A stretch of 64,000 nt of DNA from Prevotella sp. GTDB taxonomy: Bacteria; Bacteroidota; Bacteroidia; Bacteroidales; Bacteroidaceae. A model generated the notes under the pieces. The model made no database searches, was not told the DNA's origin, and saw only the letters and a list, made by a program, of their open reading frames with translations. Shown here one piece after another: positions 24,238 to 58,100 of the stretch (position 1 is the stretch's first letter; each line of letters starts with the position of its first letter). Location: NCBI GenBank assembly GCA_022511075.1, contig JAFLSE010000012.1, positions 1 through 64,000 on the forward strand, in the 5' to 3' direction. A program made the translations under genes and the position numbers.

Positions 24238-24245
24238 TACCTTTG
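24238..24245 (+). promoter_or_regulatory. -7 box TACCTTTG at head of the GTPase-operon leader
   Basis: TAnnTTTG match; followed directly by cAGCCGACT, as at 56574-56590. Confidence 0.65.
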
Positions 24246-24246
24246 C

Positions 24247-24647
24247 AGCCGACTCTTAAAGTCTTTTGATGATTTTACACTACAGACTCGTTCTGCACCG
24301 TCTTATCACAAAGACTACCTGCGCCGAGCCTGACAAAGGCGGGCATTGGATGGGAAAGAGTCACTACATTATGTAGAAAGGCGTTTACTCAACGCTTCAT
24401 CGCTACGTCCAAACTTCGAACACTTGGAAACCCTGTAGCAATGATGCAATGGTAGATGACCTCGGGATGTGTTTTATACGCATCCCTTTGGAAAAGACTA
24501 TAGCCGCAACATTGTGTCTATGTCGTTTCTATAAGGGGTACTATATTCATATCGGCGTGGGCTTCGAAGTTGCTTATCTAAACAGGGTGGCAGGTTCGAA
24601 GGCCAAGGACGTGAGATAAGTAGCGAGTACGGATCTCACGCTTTTTG
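24247..24647 (+). ncRNA. Candidate structured leader / ncRNA (copy A)
   Basis: Shares AGCCGACT, ATGGGAAAG, a GGCGTT-loop-AACGCT hairpin, CGGCGTGGGCT..GTTGCTTATCT..GATAAG..GAGTACGG and a GCGTG/CACGC-TTTTT end with copy B at 56583-56925. Confidence 0.65.
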
Positions 24648-24711: not shown

Positions 24712-25164
24712 ATGAAAAACAAAGTAAAACTATTGTGTATAGTAATGGCTTGTATTGCAAGTTTTATTTCTTGTGAATGTGATGATGAACGTCCAAGTAA
24801 TATTATTCAAGATGTTGGCGGTGGAGGTGATTTTACCATTGTCAATACGGAAACCAACGAAACGTTGATAATAGATGGAAATTTGTCAATAGGTTTACCG
24901 CAAACAATTAAGGCTCACAAAGGAAATATTATTAATATTAAGTTTGAACAAAAAGAGAAATATAAGAATTATATCTTCACAACAAAATACACTTTGCCCA
25001 ATGACGAAATGGTGGCAGATCAATCTGAGTACGAGTATATAATAAGAGAGAACTTGGGTGGCTTGTATGAAATTTCCCTAAGTGCTAATTCGTCAGGTGA
25101 AACTAAAAAAGAGAAATGGAACATATCTGCTGGAGGTCGGTTTATTCTAAATGTTGTTCAGTAG
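24712..25164 (+). CDS. Lipoprotein, short paralog of 30470-31465
   Basis: Lipobox ASFISC|E; GDFTIVNTETNETLIID ... YKNYIFTTKYTLPNDEMVADQSEYEYII aligns with the second lipoprotein. Confidence 0.75.
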   Translation: MKNKVKLLCIVMACIASFISCECDDERPSNIIQDVGGGGDFTIVNTETNETLIIDGNLSIGLPQTIKAHKGNIINIKFEQKEKYKNYIFTTKYTLPNDEMVADQSEYEYIIRENLGGLYEISLSANSSGETKKEKWNISAGGRFILNVVQ

Positions 25165-25221
25165 GGTAGATGTAATAGAAAAATCAATTGAGTATGTTAA
25201 TAATTTAAAGAATATGAAATT

Positions 25222-26418
25222 ATGAGAGAATGGCTGAAAAGTGCAGGAATTGCAGAATGGTTCTGTGCGTTGTTTTTCGTGTTTTTAGCATGTGTTAGTT
25301 GTTTTTGTACAACTCAGTCTTTGTGTCTTTCGATTGGATTTAGAGGCTGGGCGATGTTTGTTATTGTCTTTCTAATAACTTTGGCTATTTATGGTGTTAC
25401 ATCATTCTTTTTGGTTAGGATTTGGAATTACAACAATCTTAGATATTGCAAAAAAAATGGTATAACGGAGGATATGCAGAGAAATTGGACTATTGGAGGT
25501 TTTTTGATGGTTGCTTTATTCTGGCTAATTTTTAGTTTTCCAACGAATACCCATAATTTGGTCTATCAGCAAAAAGCAAATTCTGTTGCACGTGCAGAGT
25601 TGGGCAATCAGTTAAATGTTTTCCAAAAGGCAGAAAATTCTGTTGATGAAGATGTTAGAATACGTTACAAAAATGAAAGAATAGATTTGAGAAATACTGT
25701 AATATCGTTACAAGGAGAATTTGACAGAGAGATTGACGATGATGGAAGACCGGGACTTGGTCCAAGGGCAAAGGAATTTCTGGCTCAAATCGAAGAAAAA
25801 TGTACAAAAAAACGAGGCATAGGTTTTCATCATACAACTCAAAGAGACCGTAGTCCAAAAGAAAGGACTCGAATTAAAGATTATTACCATCCACAAATTG
25901 CTCAACTACTGTCAGAAGCTCAAGACTCGTTGAATATAAGTGAACAAGAGGAACTAAAACTGACAGAACGAAAGAAGATTGAACTTAATGTAAGGGTCAA
26001 GGAGATTTACGAGACATACGATGAACTTGATGCTGCAAAAGAAACTTGGAATTTCAGTTCTATGTCAGCAAGCAAATCTATAGAGGAGGCAAAAAAGTTA
26101 ATTCAAAAGGGATATAATGATCCAGACTATAAAACAATCATAATGGACAACGTATTTATCTTGAAAAACAAGAATCCTTCGGATGAGTCAAAGAAATATG
26201 ACTACAATAATGTACAAGGGTATAACATATATAGTATAGAAAGGCTATATAATGCACGTGAGGTCTGGCAAGATTTCTTGGCTGGGAAATTGCCTGTAGG
26301 CTTTGATATGCTTACATGGATTTTGCTGTCTGCAATTCTTGATATTGTAGCATTTATCCTTTCTGTTATCGCATTTCGTTCAAAAAATAATCAAACAAAA
26401 CAAACATATAAATTTTAA
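25222..26418 (+). CDS. Polytopic membrane protein (three N-terminal TMs, central coiled-coil region, one C-terminal TM), unknown
   Basis: Hydrophobic segments FCALFFVFLACVSCFC, AMFVIVFLITLAIYGVTSFFLV, FLMVALFWLIFSF, ILLSAILDIVAFILSVIAF; charged helical centre. Confidence 0.75.
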   Translation: MREWLKSAGIAEWFCALFFVFLACVSCFCTTQSLCLSIGFRGWAMFVIVFLITLAIYGVTSFFLVRIWNYNNLRYCKKNGITEDMQRNWTIGGFLMVALFWLIFSFPTNTHNLVYQQKANSVARAELGNQLNVFQKAENSVDEDVRIRYKNERIDLRNTVISLQGEFDREIDDDGRPGLGPRAKEFLAQIEEKCTKKRGIGFHHTTQRDRSPKERTRIKDYYHPQIAQLLSEAQDSLNISEQEELKLTERKKIELNVRVKEIYETYDELDAAKETWNFSSMSASKSIEEAKKLIQKGYNDPDYKTIIMDNVFILKNKNPSDESKKYDYNNVQGYNIYSIERLYNAREVWQDFLAGKLPVGFDMLTWILLSAILDIVAFILSVIAFRSKNNQTKQTYKF

Positions 26419-26424
26419 ATAATT

Positions 26425-27288
26425 ATGGCAAACAATCATGGATATGGTGGAGTAAATGCACCTATTGTCATTTTCTTTGGTCAGTCGGCAGGTGGGAAAA
26501 CTACGGCTTTGGTTAGGCTCATCAGGTACCTTCAAACTCAAAGGTACAAATTTGAACTGAGTGAAACATTCCACAATACATATTATGGCCACTTAAAAGA
26601 ATTTTCAATTAAGGATATTGAATCTGAAGTAACAACTCAGGTTAATGTTGCGTCATATGATTATATCGCAGGCTCAAAAGAAAGGGCACTCATAAATATT
26701 TGTAATTGTAAAAATGACTGTGTGTGCAGGTTCTTAGAAGTTCCAGGAGAAGATTTTATAAATTTACATGAAGCCTCTAAAATTGGTGTTGGCAATCAAA
26801 ATACCCAATATGATTATTTGAAAGATGTTACGGATTGCGAGTACAAAAAAATTTGGGTGTTCTTTTTTGATGCAGACTTTGCAACAAATGAAGAATTGAA
26901 AAAAAGCATGCTTGGTTATATTGCTGCAATACAAAAGATAAAGATTGGTCCCAATGATAAAATCATTGTTTTACTTAACAAGATAGACAAAATAACCAAA
27001 GGAGACTCTAAGAATCCAATACAAGAGAGTGAATATGCAGAGTTTATTAATGCAAACTTTGACAGTATTCTTCTGGAAGAGCCTTTTGCCACGAAACGCT
27101 GGTCATGTTTTGGCCTGATGGAACCTTACAAATCTCACTATGAATTGGTTGGATATAGTTCTTTCCACATGGAGCAAAGCAATTCTTTTAGAACAGAAGT
27201 AACTTGGATTCCCAAAGAAAGTCATGAAATATATCCACAAAAACTGTGGAAAACGATAATGCGTGCAATTGATAACAGATATGAGTAG
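26425..27288 (+). CDS. P-loop GTPase-like protein
   Basis: G1 GQSAGGKTT (26479-26505), possible G3-like FLEVPGEDF, G4 LLNKIDK (26977-26988). Confidence 0.75.
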   Translation: MANNHGYGGVNAPIVIFFGQSAGGKTTALVRLIRYLQTQRYKFELSETFHNTYYGHLKEFSIKDIESEVTTQVNVASYDYIAGSKERALINICNCKNDCVCRFLEVPGEDFINLHEASKIGVGNQNTQYDYLKDVTDCEYKKIWVFFFDADFATNEELKKSMLGYIAAIQKIKIGPNDKIIVLLNKIDKITKGDSKNPIQESEYAEFINANFDSILLEEPFATKRWSCFGLMEPYKSHYELVGYSSFHMEQSNSFRTEVTWIPKESHEIYPQKLWKTIMRAIDNRYE

Positions 27289-28633
27289 GTCAAACGTACA
27301 ATTTATAGTTTCAGGACAGCCCAAAATGGGGCATGAGTCATGGCCATCTTCTGTTGATGATAAAGTTCTTTCTGACCGTCTTTATAGTCAGCGTGGTGCA
27401 GAAGAAGAGACACGAATGGAGGTGAAATTTGAGAAAATTGGTGATAGGTATGTAACCTATTACCATTTCTCAAAATTAAAAAACATTACAAGTTGTCTAA
27501 CAGATGACGACAAAAAGTTTGCTAAAGATCATGGACGCCCAGGAAGTTTTTTTGTGATGTCACTGAGACTTGATAATGTCTATTCTACAAATTTTACTGG
27601 AATTTACGAAAAACTTGAAAGTCTTTATGAACATTATGTAGAAGAAAACATACTGAAAAGAAGTAAAGAAGGATTTCTTGTCTATCAAGTGATGAAACTG
27701 GAAGAAGCAAAAAGTACTTGGGAGCAAATTTATAATGAACTGACAGTTCAAAGCATAAACATTCTTCTAAATAAGACGAAACATATCCCGAACAGTATTA
27801 TAATAAAAGGGGTAAAGGTTCCTGAATATTTTTGTGTTGGCGAAGACGATAATGCAGAAGAAGCACTCCTGCGAGAGGGGCAGATTGTATTCTTGTCTAG
27901 GAAAGAACAAGCATTACGAGAGGAAAGGCTTGTTAAAGATAAACAAAGCACTACTGATGAGTCTCTTATTGAGAATATTGCAGAAAATATAAAAAGGAAT
28001 GAGGTGAACAACTTGGGATTAGAAAAAGAGCACTCTTCAATTACATACAATGCTACCATACAAGAGGGCAAAGATGAAAAACTGTATGATATTGACGAGG
28101 ATTTAGACAAAAGTTCACCCACATTAGGTAATGGCCTCGCTATCCCCCGAAAGAAAGACAATTTTGGCAGATTAGCAATTGTATTTCTTTTGGGGTGTTG
28201 CTGTGGCAGTGGAATCTCTTTTATGATTAGTCATACTGAGGGTGTGTCTCAAGCGAGTCCAATAGGTCATGACACGATATACATTGAGAAAGAACAACAA
28301 GCTATCAAAACCTCTCATATTGAGTCTGATACTATAACATTGTTAGATTTGAGAAAGGCTGATGCTGATATGAGCAATGCAACAGAAATGCAAAAAGGTA
28401 ATAACTACATCGTTGTTGCCAAAACAGGAACATCAAATAAACGTCAGAATGCTAATGGCTCTGGAAAATTCTTATGTGATGTTGGGCGTAATGAAGTTAT
28501 ATTAGAACAAAAAGGTGCTGAATGCCATATTACTGTATTAGAAGATGCAAATGTAAAAAAAATACAATTGGTTTATGTTTATGAGTTGAAAAAAGGCTAC
28601 ACATTCTACTTTAGAGAAATAAAAATTAAATAA
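27281..28633 (+). CDS. Single-pass membrane protein with large N-terminal domain; GTPase partner candidate (start chosen at 27281, overlapping GTPase stop)
   Basis: One strong TM LAIVFLLGCCCGSGISFMIS preceded by PRKKDNFGR; 8-nt overlap with upstream CDS. Confidence 0.7.
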   Translation: MSRSNVQFIVSGQPKMGHESWPSSVDDKVLSDRLYSQRGAEEETRMEVKFEKIGDRYVTYYHFSKLKNITSCLTDDDKKFAKDHGRPGSFFVMSLRLDNVYSTNFTGIYEKLESLYEHYVEENILKRSKEGFLVYQVMKLEEAKSTWEQIYNELTVQSINILLNKTKHIPNSIIIKGVKVPEYFCVGEDDNAEEALLREGQIVFLSRKEQALREERLVKDKQSTTDESLIENIAENIKRNEVNNLGLEKEHSSITYNATIQEGKDEKLYDIDEDLDKSSPTLGNGLAIPRKKDNFGRLAIVFLLGCCCGSGISFMISHTEGVSQASPIGHDTIYIEKEQQAIKTSHIESDTITLLDLRKADADMSNATEMQKGNNYIVVAKTGTSNKRQNANGSGKFLCDVGRNEVILEQKGAECHITVLEDANVKKIQLVYVYELKKGYTFYFREIKIK

Positions 28634-30417
28634 TGGTTTTTGATATATGTTTCTTTAAATATAGTAATAAGGTTCTAAGCCAATACCCGACTCTCGATTA
28701 TGCAAAAGGCGTTATAAACGAGAGCCTTGGGCAGACGTTACTTTTACATGGTAAACGGCAACTTTGCTTTATAAAACGCAGTAGTAGTGGGGCTATTCGA
28801 ATGTTCCAAATTTACAACTATATCTATAATGGGGAAAATTCTTTTGGAATATGCATCGTGTACTATGACGAATATTCACAAGATGTGGAATTTCTGTTCA
28901 ATTTTTTTAGTTCTATAGTTGCAAATATAGTTGAAGAAGGGAAAGTACTTTATTTTGATACAAATGGAAGAATTGTAAGTGCTAAAGAGGGTATAGAACA
29001 CTACTATTCTATTTTAGCGAAATATAAAAATAGGATAACGTCTGCTTTACAAAACTTAAAATCGGGCATCAAGCCAATACCATTAAATGTATATAATAAC
29101 TATATAGATCAGCATATAGTTTGTCAGCGATCTGACAAATCGTGGTCTATGGATGAGGTCATGCAGCATAATAATATTGTCATAATCACAGAGGAAATAG
29201 AGGATGAGAATATAAACAGTATGCGTGGCCTTATAAAGAGGTCGTATGAAGAGGTGGATAAACTCAATATACGAATTAGGGCACTAACAAGTCACATAGA
29301 ACACATAAAACACGAAAAAGGTAAGGGTGCGTCCTATGGCCATATACAAAATGTATGTTCCAAAACAAATATAACAGCCAAACAAGAAAAAGAGAAAAAC
29401 AATGTTGATAAGTTTGATATTATAATGTGGCTAATAACAGGTGGCTTTATTTTATCCATTTTCTTTAATCTAATAACACCATGGTTCATAGATTCTATAT
29501 GGTCAAAAATTTCTGTGGTCTTAACGGGTATAGGGGCGTGTTCTTTTTTTTACGCATTAAATGACAATTCTAAGAAAGAATATGAAAACATCTTAATGGG
29601 AGGTGGCGTGATTGTAATATTATTATCTACATTATTCACTATATATTGCTGTTTTGGTGGATTTTCGAAAAATGATAATAACGAAAGTTATATACAATCA
29701 ATTCAAGAACCTGAAAGTTTTATGCTTTTAGGAGAAGGTGTTAATCGTCCAGAAAACTTTGACGCAGACACTATTGTAACACCAGAGAACATCAAGGATT
29801 TATATTGTAACTATAATGTCTGTGAATTGTTTAATGGTGACTATTATCTTATTCGTTCCAAAAAATCTTATACCGATTCCCGTTATTTTTCTCGTCTGAT
29901 TCTGATGAAAAACGGTAAGCAAACAGCGGCACAGACCTTCTATGATAGCGAGATTGATTCTGCAAATATTATTAGATTAGGAAATCGGATTGTAGTTGGC
30001 CTCAATTCTCTTCGAGTGAATAATTATGATTCTACTTTCCAATACACAACCCACAGCTGTAGGGTAATTATCCTTTCTGATAACCTTACCCCCATCTCAG
30101 GAAAAAGATTTTCTTCAAACATTTACAACCGAGATGAAGAACATACTTATGTTAATTCTTTGAAGGCTTTAGATGATAAATTTTTCTCTTGTCATATTAA
30201 ATCAGACGCGGGAGTTTGTCTATTTACAACTACAATAAATGATTTTTCGTTATTTCATTACAAATATAATAACAATATAGAAATGAATAATTTAAGTTTT
30301 GCCAACTCTGATTGGGGAAATGACATATCAGATGGACTATTAGTAAAAATGAAAGCGCGACAACTATATGACAAAGCAAATGATAGTGTTCGCGTAAGAA
30401 GAAAGGAAATACGATAA
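28633..30417 (+). CDS. Membrane protein (three TMs, ~260-aa N-terminal and ~230-aa C-terminal soluble domains), unknown
   Basis: TAATG overlap with upstream stop; TMs IIMWLITGGFILSIFFNLI, SVVLTGIGACSFFYAL, MGGGVIVILLSTLFTIYCCF. Confidence 0.7.
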   Translation: MVFDICFFKYSNKVLSQYPTLDYAKGVINESLGQTLLLHGKRQLCFIKRSSSGAIRMFQIYNYIYNGENSFGICIVYYDEYSQDVEFLFNFFSSIVANIVEEGKVLYFDTNGRIVSAKEGIEHYYSILAKYKNRITSALQNLKSGIKPIPLNVYNNYIDQHIVCQRSDKSWSMDEVMQHNNIVIITEEIEDENINSMRGLIKRSYEEVDKLNIRIRALTSHIEHIKHEKGKGASYGHIQNVCSKTNITAKQEKEKNNVDKFDIIMWLITGGFILSIFFNLITPWFIDSIWSKISVVLTGIGACSFFYALNDNSKKEYENILMGGGVIVILLSTLFTIYCCFGGFSKNDNNESYIQSIQEPESFMLLGEGVNRPENFDADTIVTPENIKDLYCNYNVCELFNGDYYLIRSKKSYTDSRYFSRLILMKNGKQTAAQTFYDSEIDSANIIRLGNRIVVGLNSLRVNNYDSTFQYTTHSCRVIILSDNLTPISGKRFSSNIYNRDEEHTYVNSLKALDDKFFSCHIKSDAGVCLFTTTINDFSLFHYKYNNNIEMNNLSFANSDWGNDISDGLLVKMKARQLYDKANDSVRVRRKEIR

Positions 30418-30469
30418 ACGTGTATTTAACAACTTATTAACAGATATGTGAAATTAAAAAGATAGAACT

Positions 30470-31465
30470 ATGAAAAGAAAAGTTTGTAACGTATTGCTTA
30501 TAAGTGTTGTCTGTATGATATCTTGTAGTACAGATGATATTGAAACAAGTGGAATTGAAAAGGTAGAATCGAAATCTGCTGGCGATTTTATTGTTGTCAA
30601 TAAGAGGACAAACGAAACGTTGACAATCAAGGAGGCAACAGAAGATGGTGCTGAGGAAATTATCGCACATGTAGGAGATACGCTCAAAATAACATTTAAT
30701 CCAGAAACAAAATATAAGGATTATTCTTTTAAGAAAAGATATATCCTTCCAGATAATAGAGTTGAAGGAGGTAAAGAAAATGATTCTGAGTACGAATATG
30801 TTATTACAAGTCTAAAGAAAGGTGTGTACGGCATTGATTTGGAGGCAAGCTCATCGGGAACTAATGATAAAACTAATTGGGATTTACAAGCCAAAGGTAA
30901 GTTTAATATGAAAATTGTTCCATACGTTAATGTTGACTATGTTTTGTCCTGTCCGAATGCTCTTTTAGAATTTGCAACTCCTCAGGTTATCTATGTGGGA
31001 AATGATGGAAAACCTGTAACATTTACAATTCCAGAGTCTGATTGGAAAGAACTTATATATCCAGAATCATGGGATTTGGAAGATGAAAAAGCAATTGTTG
31101 TTATAGACGGAGAAAGTATCATTTCGGAGCAAACGAAAACAATGCAATGGACAAAATATGTCGAGTATGATGATTTTTCGGTTATTGATGATGAAATGAC
31201 GGTGGTTTACATTCCAAAGAATAATATACCAACAGGAAACGTTGATAAAATTGAAGGTTTAAAACCACGATTAAATGCAAATCTTGAATTTGCGGATGAT
31301 GATGGACAAAAGCGTAAGCCAATGATTATTGATATTGATGTAGATATGAATATTGGTGCTCCAGGTAGCAAGTCTCTTTATGAAATTATTAGCAATCATC
31401 GTAATTATAAGGGATTTCATGTTGAAAGCAATGGTACTTATGATACAAAGAAAGAGGATAAATGA
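30470..31465 (+). CDS. Lipoprotein, long paralog of 24712-25164 with extra C-terminal domain
   Basis: Lipobox VVCMISC|S; AGDFIVVNKRTNETLTIK ... YKDYSFKKRYILPDNRVEGGKENDSEYEYVI. Confidence 0.75.
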   Translation: MKRKVCNVLLISVVCMISCSTDDIETSGIEKVESKSAGDFIVVNKRTNETLTIKEATEDGAEEIIAHVGDTLKITFNPETKYKDYSFKKRYILPDNRVEGGKENDSEYEYVITSLKKGVYGIDLEASSSGTNDKTNWDLQAKGKFNMKIVPYVNVDYVLSCPNALLEFATPQVIYVGNDGKPVTFTIPESDWKELIYPESWDLEDEKAIVVIDGESIISEQTKTMQWTKYVEYDDFSVIDDEMTVVYIPKNNIPTGNVDKIEGLKPRLNANLEFADDDGQKRKPMIIDIDVDMNIGAPGSKSLYEIISNHRNYKGFHVESNGTYDTKKEDK

Positions 31466-31477
31466 ACATTTTAGACA

Positions 31478-56550: not shown

Positions 56551-56581
56551 TTTGCCTTTTAAATTTTTCTTTCTAATTTTG
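56551..56581 (+). promoter_or_regulatory. Canonical Bacteroidetes promoter TTTG-N19-TAATTTTG for leader copy B / LRR gene
   Basis: TTTG 56551-56554, TAATTTTG 56574-56581. Confidence 0.7.
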
Positions 56582-56582
56582 T

Positions 56583-56925
56583 AGCCGACTTTAGCCAGTC
56601 TGCAACGACAGGGCGGGTCACAATGACATGTTGGAATCCAGAGACCACCAAGCCGTTTGTAGGGCAGGTCAATGGGAAAGGACGTTTTCAGAACGTTATC
56701 TTCTGTACTCAAATCTCGCAAATTTGATTCTCTCAGAAGGTATCGCAACGAAGCGTCCATGCTGGGTGTATTATATCCCGATGTGTGGCAGCCATAGTTG
56801 GCTCTATACATTATTTATGTAATACGCGACGGCGTGGGCTGGCTGAGTTGCTTATCTTGAGAGAGGGCAATGCGAGAGCCTGAGTACGGGATAAGCGGCA
56901 GAAAGTTTCTCCTACGCCTTTTTTG
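56583..56925 (+). ncRNA. Candidate structured leader / ncRNA (copy B)
   Basis: Same ordered blocks as copy A; ends in GGCGT...ACGCC-TTTTTT. Confidence 0.65.
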
Positions 56926-56990
56926 TTTCCACACCTTAATTATTAACCGCTGAAGCAGGGAGAGTGGTAGGCAAGTAAAATAGTTTAAAA

Positions 56991-58100
56991 ATGAAACAAT
57001 TTAACCTAACAATTTTGTTCACTGTACTTATGAATATGGTTGGAGCAAAGGCTTTTGCCTATGATGTAGCCGTGGAGAATGAAGATGGCAAAACGATTTA
57101 CTACAACTACATTAACAATAGTACGGAGTTGGAAGTAACATATAGTTACTCTTATCGCTATTCAGGTGATATAAAAATACCTGAGACTGTAACGATTCTG
57201 AATAAGACTCGTAAGGTGACAAGCATTGACAAAGATGCTTTCTATGATTGCAGTGGCTTGACTTCGGTCACCATTCCTTCCAGCGTTACGAGTATCGGCA
57301 ATAGTGCTTTCTTTTGTTGCAGTGGCTTGACTTCGATAACCATTCCTTCCAGCGTGACGAGTATCGGCAGCTATGCTTTCGAAGGTTGCAGTGGCTTGAA
57401 GAAAGTCGTTGTGAAAGACCTTGCTGCATGGTATGGCATTTCCTTTGGAAGTTATTATAGTAATCCATTGTCTTGTGCCAAACATCTTTATAGTGATGAA
57501 GATACAGAAATAACAGACTTGGTAATTCCTGAAGATGTGACGAGTATCAACAGCTATACTTTCAGTGGTTGCAGCGGCTTGACTTCGGTCACTATCCCTT
57601 CCAGCGTGGCGAGTATCGACCAAGATGCTTTCTATGGTTGCAGTGGCTTGACTTCGGTCACTATCCCTTCCAGCGTGGCGAGTATCGACCAAGGTGCTTT
57701 CTATGGTTGCAGTGGCTTGACTTCGGTCACAATTCCTGCCAGCGTAACAAGTATCGGCAGCTATGCTTTCGATTATTGCAATAATCTTGCGGACTTTGTA
57801 TCATTGATAGAAGAACCTTTCGGGGTTGACTATATAGTTTCTGACCTCGTCTATAATAATGGGACACTTTATGTTCCCGAGGGAACAATAGAAAAATACA
57901 AGGCGACTGATGGCTGGAAGCAGTTTTTATGGATAGAAGAAGGTGTGCCGATGAGCATCAAACAGCCAAATGCTAATGGAGCTGATGCAAAGGAAACACA
58001 ACGCTATACTATCGGCGGGGATATCATCAACAATCCACAGCGCGGTATCAACATCGTAAAGATGAGCGACGGAACAGTGAAGAAAGTCATAGTAAAATAA
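56991..58100 (+). CDS. BspA-type leucine-rich repeat surface protein
   Basis: Repeats of ~23 aa (SIDQDAFYGCSGLTSVTIPSSVA); C-term RYTIGGDIINNPQRGINIVKMSDGTVKKVIVK. Confidence 0.92.
   Translation: MKQFNLTILFTVLMNMVGAKAFAYDVAVENEDGKTIYYNYINNSTELEVTYSYSYRYSGDIKIPETVTILNKTRKVTSIDKDAFYDCSGLTSVTIPSSVTSIGNSAFFCCSGLTSITIPSSVTSIGSYAFEGCSGLKKVVVKDLAAWYGISFGSYYSNPLSCAKHLYSDEDTEITDLVIPEDVTSINSYTFSGCSGLTSVTIPSSVASIDQDAFYGCSGLTSVTIPSSVASIDQGAFYGCSGLTSVTIPASVTSIGSYAFDYCNNLADFVSLIEEPFGVDYIVSDLVYNNGTLYVPEGTIEKYKATDGWKQFLWIEEGVPMSIKQPNANGADAKETQRYTIGGDIINNPQRGINIVKMSDGTVKKVIVK
57612..57749. repeat. Two near-identical 69-bp tandem units inside the LRR gene
   Basis: AGTATCGACCAAGATGCTTTC... (57612-57680) and AGTATCGACCAAGGTGCTTTC... 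(57681-57749). Confidence 0.85.

Follow-up and report, generated by a model that had tools for sequence, protein, structure and literature searches.

To our knowledge, few regulatory RNAs are known in Bacteroidales. In plasmid antisense attenuators of the pT181/pIP501 type and in the kissing hairpins of ColE1, stem-loops with complementary loops influence the fold of a terminator or a primer. The leaders described here likewise contain two stem-loops with complementary loops (SL1 and SL2), but both are located on the same RNA. Judging by its sequence, the element would work like a trp-type attenuator minus the leader peptide. The two have in common four ordered strands, with strand 3 shared by the antiterminator (2:3) and the terminator (3:4), as well as a U-run and the placement before the regulated gene. 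In contrast to trp-type attenuators, the element has no conserved leader peptide, possesses three extra long-range strand contacts, comprises ~230 nt between the first and the last strand in a typical member and occurs as one family before many unrelated genes. Terminator-type riboswitches and T-box leaders resemble it in the long non-coding leader and the choice between terminator and antiterminator; unlike them, the element has no Rfam match (T-box included) and its targets share no pathway. Bacteroidales-1 (Rfam RF01693, suggested to be 6S RNA) is also an order-specific RNA, but its match in one of our loci (L133) is found at a separate place with no overlap with the leader. Two Bacteroidetes candidate RNAs of 108 and 132 bp, HMP2_1881 and HMP2_4205, lie near radical SAM and TPR genes, and one of them was called a palindromic terminator (Fremin and Bhatt 2021, PMC8040213). 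As far as their published description goes, these could be the SL2 part of the present family; in that case the published fragments lack the length to accommodate SL1, the promoter and the switch. The leaders of the family are ~400–465 nt long and therefore stand out against the median mapped 5' UTR of 32 nt in B. thetaiotaomicron (PMC7366714).

The window, i.e. the whole 64,000-nt stretch of Prevotella sp. DNA that was analysed, contains two such leaders, copy A and copy B (Table 1). As far as sequence comparison can tell, both are probably non-coding, promoter-proximal attenuators of transcription and represent a new family in Bacteroidales. The original prediction named a series of blocks shared by the two copies in the same order, and direct reading of both leaders located all of them. 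It also proposed a terminator-like end before the start codon; a T-run is indeed present 64–70 nt upstream of the ATG in both copies. The fold energy is 6.6 sd (copy A) and 7.6 sd (copy B) below that of shuffled sequences.

Table 1. Coordinates of the features of leader copies A and B and of the first genes behind them (window numbering).
Copy	Feature	Position	Strand	Partner or basis
A	-7 promoter box TACCTTTG	24238–24245	+	Sequence; TAnnTTTG at this place in the family
A	5' domain of the leader, variable hairpins	24247–24370	+	Sequence; conserved 5' GAC/GTC stem judged by eye
A	a-strand 5' arm AAAGGCGTT and local hairpin P0 GCGTT-TACTC-AACGC	24377–24395	+	P0 pairing in the family
A	Segment E' TACGTCC	24404–24410	+	24607–24613; swap test
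A	Loop A CTTCGAAC of hairpin hpA	24414–24421	+	24594–24601; A:C covariation
A	Segment D' ACCCTGT	24430–24436	+	24582–24588; swap test
A	Terminator 5' arm PT5 GGCGTGGG	24554–24561	+	Pairing of the terminator helix (PT)
A	S2 5' strand GTTGCTTATC	24569–24578	+	
A	Segment D ACAGGGT	24582–24588	+	D'/D swap test
A	Hairpin hpC GGC-(loop C GTTCGAAG)-GCC	24589–24604	+	A:C covariation
A	Segment E GGACGTG	24607–24613	+	E'/E swap test
A	S2 3' strand AGATAAG	24614–24620	+	
A	Terminator 3' arm PT3 CTCACGCT and U-run	24635–24646	+	T-run at 24642; mean 6.5 T in 8 nt in the family
A	First gene, predicted lipoprotein of 150 aa	24712–25164	+	ORF; no Pfam/NCBIfam match
B	-7 promoter box TAATTTTG	56574–56581	+	
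B	5' domain of the leader	56583–56670	+	Sequence
B	a-strand 5' arm AAAGGACGTT and P0 hairpin ACGTT-TTCAG-AACGT	56677–56695	+	Family-wide P0 pairing
B	S1 5' strand ATCTTCT	56698–56704	+	56735–56741; S1 above swaps in divergent loci
B	Segment E' GTACTCA	56705–56711	+	56881–56887
B	Loop A TCTCGCA	56714–56720	+	56871–56877; A:C covariation
B	Segment D' TCTCTCA	56729–56735	+	56858–56864
B	Predicted antiterminator 5' arm GTCCATG	56755–56761	+	56833–56839; minimum-energy fold; three-strand covariation in divergent members
B	Terminator 5' arm PT5 GGCGTGGG	56831–56838	+	
B	S2 5' strand GTTGCTTATC	56847–56856	+	
B	Segment D TGAGAGA	56858–56864	+	
B	Hairpin hpC GGC-(loop C TGCGAGA)-GCC	56866–56880	+	A:C covariation
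B	Segment E TGAGTAC	56881–56887	+	
B	S2 3' strand GGGATAAGC	56888–56896	+	
B	Terminator 3' arm PT3 CCTACGCC and U-run	56911–56924	+	T-run at 56919
B	Post-terminator element hpX, GGGAGA complementary to PT3-adjacent TCTCC	56947–56975	+	Moderate support
B	First gene, BspA-type leucine-rich-repeat surface protein	56991–58100	+	Pfam LRR_5, E=1.9e-54

The similarity of the two copies exceeds chance. A two-block pattern occurs five times in their own genome, with no occurrence of the reversed control, and in 17 of 60 genomes of the genus. The covariance model, which spans the 3' domain alone and whose training set included both window copies, finds 10 copies in the same genome, so that the further genomic copies anticipated earlier do exist. 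It detects the element in 67 of 100 genus genomes and in 72 of 296 genomes of the order (about a quarter), with up to 11 copies each; outside the order, the class-level sample of 248 genomes gave a weak match (E=4e-4) in a single genome. In GTDB genomes at least 115 stretches match the pattern, among them stretches from Bacteroides, Phocaeicola, Paraprevotella, Xylanibacter, Prevotella, Muribaculaceae, Alistipes and Parabacteroides. One GTDB match of the pattern (L091) falls within a coding region and was discarded as a chance occurrence. Cultured carriers of the element include Phocaeicola massiliensis, Xylanibacter rarus and Paraprevotella clara. The element is also seen on contigs labelled Clostridia, Lachnospiraceae and Clostridium (L077, L080, L153), which are probably Bacteroidales sequence misplaced in MAGs. 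In total 207 distinct loci were analysed. The pattern of the first sample fixes GGCGTGGGC and GTTGCTTATC, a bias that is lessened, not removed, by the divergent loci found with the model (~70 loci come from the model rather than from the pattern).

The leaders represent a previously uncatalogued RNA family and are not members of any Rfam family tested. Neither copy has an Rfam match at gathering score. The scan of the window and 16 further loci against Rfam 15 at this score gave no family at the element, and its matches (tRNA, TPP and Bacteroidales-1 only) are all away from it. A search of both copies at relaxed E-value returned nothing except sub-threshold eukaryotic chance matches, and no paper describing the element was found in a literature search.

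The RNA is predicted to form two large hairpins, SL1 (strands a and b, around hpA) and SL2 (strands c and d, around hpC). The base of SL2, GGCGUGGG/CCCACGUC, is followed by the U-run. This terminator helix is paired at seven or more of its eight positions in all 207 loci, and at 96% of the loci the next eight bases include at least five T (7.6% of control positions). Among the cells of the helix, 218 are G.U and only 2 are A.C, which points to selection on the RNA of the plus strand. A Bacteroidetes-type promoter motif TAnnTTTG precedes 161 of 200 leaders (80%), compared with 11% of control windows.

Covariation was judged by swapping partners between loci. Three segments, E'/E, A/C and D'/D, are complementary between the apical regions of SL1 and SL2; their sequences vary between copies while complementarity is kept within each copy. 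Loops A and C share seven or more exactly complementary nucleotides in 127 of 134 loci, with many sequence types (CTTAGCA/TGCTAAG, TCTAGCA/TGCTAGA, CTTGGCG/CGCCAAG, TCTGGTAA/TTACCAGA and CTTCGAAC/GTTCGAAG among them). At least six weighted pairs are formed by D'/D in 94% of own-locus combinations versus 6% of swapped ones (106 different 6-mers in 129 loci) and by E'/E in 96% versus 14% (77 different 6-mers in 132 loci). In copy B every one of these pairings is perfect. The SL1:SL2 duplex energy is -56.3 kcal/mol within a locus versus -39.6 kcal/mol with other loci.

The local hairpins proposed from the two copies are borne out by the larger set. P0, for which compensatory changes had been noticed, is paired at 5/5 positions in 132 of 177 loci, with the types GCGTT-AACGC/GACGC and ACGTT-AACGT/GACGT. 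The CAAA..TCG..TTG hairpin is confirmed, and its loop pairs with a second loop ~150–180 nt downstream. The local pairing of GTTGCTTATC with GATAAG holds as well, with the refinement that this strand has a second partner in divergent members, namely the GCAAC region upstream of it. A GUUGC/GCAAU local hairpin was rejected, as it is lost in divergent loci. The strong covariation, the conserved promoter and U-run and the many copies agree with the proposal of a structured leader RNA independent of the genes downstream.

In the divergent loci the swap scores of S1 (11.5 own vs. 7.8 swapped), S2 (9.3 vs. 7.4) and b:c (12.3 vs. 9.2) are each above those of swapped partners, hence strand c has two partners. 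Since the strand forming the terminator also pairs upstream, antiterminator and terminator are mutually exclusive in most members. In L231, L243, L244, L252, L264, L265 and L278, changes in the terminator 5' arm are matched by changes in both of its partners: the arm GGCGUGAG is matched by CUCACG on both sides in L231 and L252, and L278 has AGCGUGAG; AGCGUGGGC changes together with GCUCACGCU in L243, GGCGUGGAC with GUUCACGCC in L244, GGCGUGAAUU with AAUUCGCGCC in L264 and AGCACGCA with UGCGUGC in L265. In compact members the upstream pairing is a plain hairpin directly 5' of SL2, for example GCUCACGCU-AUA-AGCGUGGGC. For a 9-nt antiterminator window in the loci with unusual terminator arms the swap score is only slightly raised (6.0 vs. 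5.3), so the antiterminator helix, evident in some members, is not a feature of all. Pairing of a with d inside the S1/S2 arms found no support in the swap test, although an association exists between the AAAG.CGT and ACG.CUUU types (chi-square p=4e-9).

When pseudoknots are left out, the minimum-energy structure of 101 out of 145 loci is the long SL1 x SL2 form and that of 20 is the terminator form (some loci, e.g. copy B, were parsed from a later start); the forced terminator fold lies a median of 7 kcal/mol above the minimum. The minimum-energy fold of copy B is the long form. The antiterminator of copy A is weak (GACCTCG versus CGTGGGC, 5/7 paired), and its minimum-energy fold consists of separate hairpins and corresponds to neither the terminator nor the antiterminator alternative. 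A simple terminator scan of the window found nothing because the terminator loop far exceeds the length limit of the scan. After the U-run there is a small element, often GCCGAAU..GGGGAGUC..AGGC, that pairs with ACUCCC beside the terminator arm. Its longest complement is 5.68 family-wide versus 4.73 (sd 0.12) for swapped partners. Copy B has a clear example of this element, whereas none was found in copy A.

These comparative data show the predicted structures with strand c used by two of them, the promoter motif and the U-run, and the constant location ahead of a gene; the following mechanism is suggested. The RNA would start just 3' of its own TAnnTTTG promoter and SL1 would form first. The base of SL2 together with the U-run would serve as an intrinsic terminator. 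Strand c, which contains the terminator 5' arm GGCGUGGG, could switch to strand b (GUCCACG:CGUGGGC plus D'/D), and the b:c pairing would give one long hairpin unable to terminate. The choice is presumably made during transcription: with SL1 intact, SL2 would close and transcription would stop, and with SL1 invaded by strand c the long hairpin would allow read-through. Candidate triggers are a ligand or protein bound to SL1/hpA, or the speed of the polymerase.

A special case of such an attenuator is a metabolite riboswitch, in which a small molecule would set termination by binding in a pocket formed where SL1 and SL2 make contact. The size of the element, several conserved loop positions and the terminator as an expression platform are consistent with this. 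However, the 124 genes downstream represent 80 Pfam families with no shared pathway, and nearly all strongly conserved letters belong to predicted helices, leaving no obvious unpaired conserved pocket. We consider a riboswitch unlikely; a protein on hpA or the polymerase speed is just as likely to be the trigger as a metabolite.

The variability of the paired loops raises the question of regulation in trans. It is conceivable, though distinctly unlikely, that promoter and RNA switch form a portable cassette, copied ahead of many surface, peptide and regulatory genes and with a changing loop code for each copy, the terminated leader regulating its own locus in trans and the copies being independent. 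Trans control as the actual function, with the terminated leader pairing to SL2 (or SL1) of its own locus while that RNA is being made, similar to plasmid copy-number attenuation, and the loops serving as address codes, is quite improbable. Each copy does carry its own code: the paralogues L003 and L004 of the window's genome are 90% identical over 487 nt, most of their differences are in the paired loops and are compensated, and the best pairing partner is the cis one in 68 of 72 comparisons within genomes. However, the cross pairing within a genome (-44.9) is no weaker than that between genomes (-44.5), so there is no sign of avoidance, and the covariation is explained by cis pairing alone. 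The loops, moreover, diverge in L003/L004 and L049/L056 approximately as fast as unconstrained spacer, with complementarity kept.

The original prediction left the choice between an attenuator and a stand-alone RNA, and the former is the better fit. A small RNA that has a promoter and a terminator to itself, and for which the downstream gene is incidental or read by leakage only, would agree with the promoter, the strong U-run and the fold, which is large and compact and includes several long-range contacts. Yet almost every copy is followed by a start codon, the first ATG typically being 135–175 nt after the terminator 5' arm; the element pairing with the terminator arm sits between the U-run and the ATG; and most members have an upstream partner of the terminator strand, needless for a stand-alone RNA. 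The nearly fixed distance of the start codon and the alternative partner of the terminator strand thus favor the attenuator, and a stand-alone RNA appears improbable.

Irrespective of the flanking sequence, the homologous part of the copies usually extends from ~300 nt upstream to ~150 nt downstream of the terminator 5' arm; promoter and leader thus move together. Such a cassette of ~480 bp between unrelated flanks, its patchy presence and the fact that SL1 and SL2 are imperfect reverse complements of each other would suit a MITE-like mobile inverted-repeat DNA element, the structure being a DNA palindrome. This is very improbable: the G.U excess indicates RNA, the loops vary between copies whereas those of MITEs would be shared, and the order promoter–leader–gene is constant. 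A plasmid or phage element was rejected too, with no plasmid match and three viral pattern matches having longer spacers only. A ribosome-mediated attenuator with a leader peptide, despite the 1:2 / 2:3 / 3:4 layout like that of trp-type attenuators, is hardly credible, as the short ATG frames are scattered across the leaders and none is conserved. In L002, L003 and L004 the block TTAAAAACCGTTAATATT is common upstream of the -7 box, and the travelling unit there includes it.

If the attenuator reading is true, the element would constitute an unnoticed layer of control of the cell surface in gut and rumen bacteria (adhesins, radical-SAM peptide precursors, regulators, lipoproteins), and its covarying copy-specific loops offer a ready means of testing the mechanism. 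Recurrent among the downstream genes are BspA-type LRR proteins (14), Cys-Xaa-Xaa-Xaa radical SAM target peptides (TIGR04117; 10) and LytTR proteins (4); others encode small XRE and UpxY regulators and lipoproteins. According to a crude test, signal-like N-termini are found in 56% of downstream genes versus 32% of other nearby genes.

Directly after the leader, many genera have a small Cro/C1-like protein of ~70–80 aa with a conserved "...SIDT.LL.RIS..." (L079, L099, L114, L125, L137, L141, L148, L213, L256, L257, L264, L271). This protein may be a regulator associated with the element. In several genera the leader is followed by Cys-rich SRREFFK peptides, which are radical SAM targets of the TIGR04117 type (L004, L036, L050, L070, L077, L096, L098, L100, L122, L267). 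The operon behind copy A (24712–32296 of the window) comprises seven genes almost without Pfam or NCBIfam matches, with one weak match to Gtr1_RagA GTPase (E=3e-4) and one weak Sel1 match.
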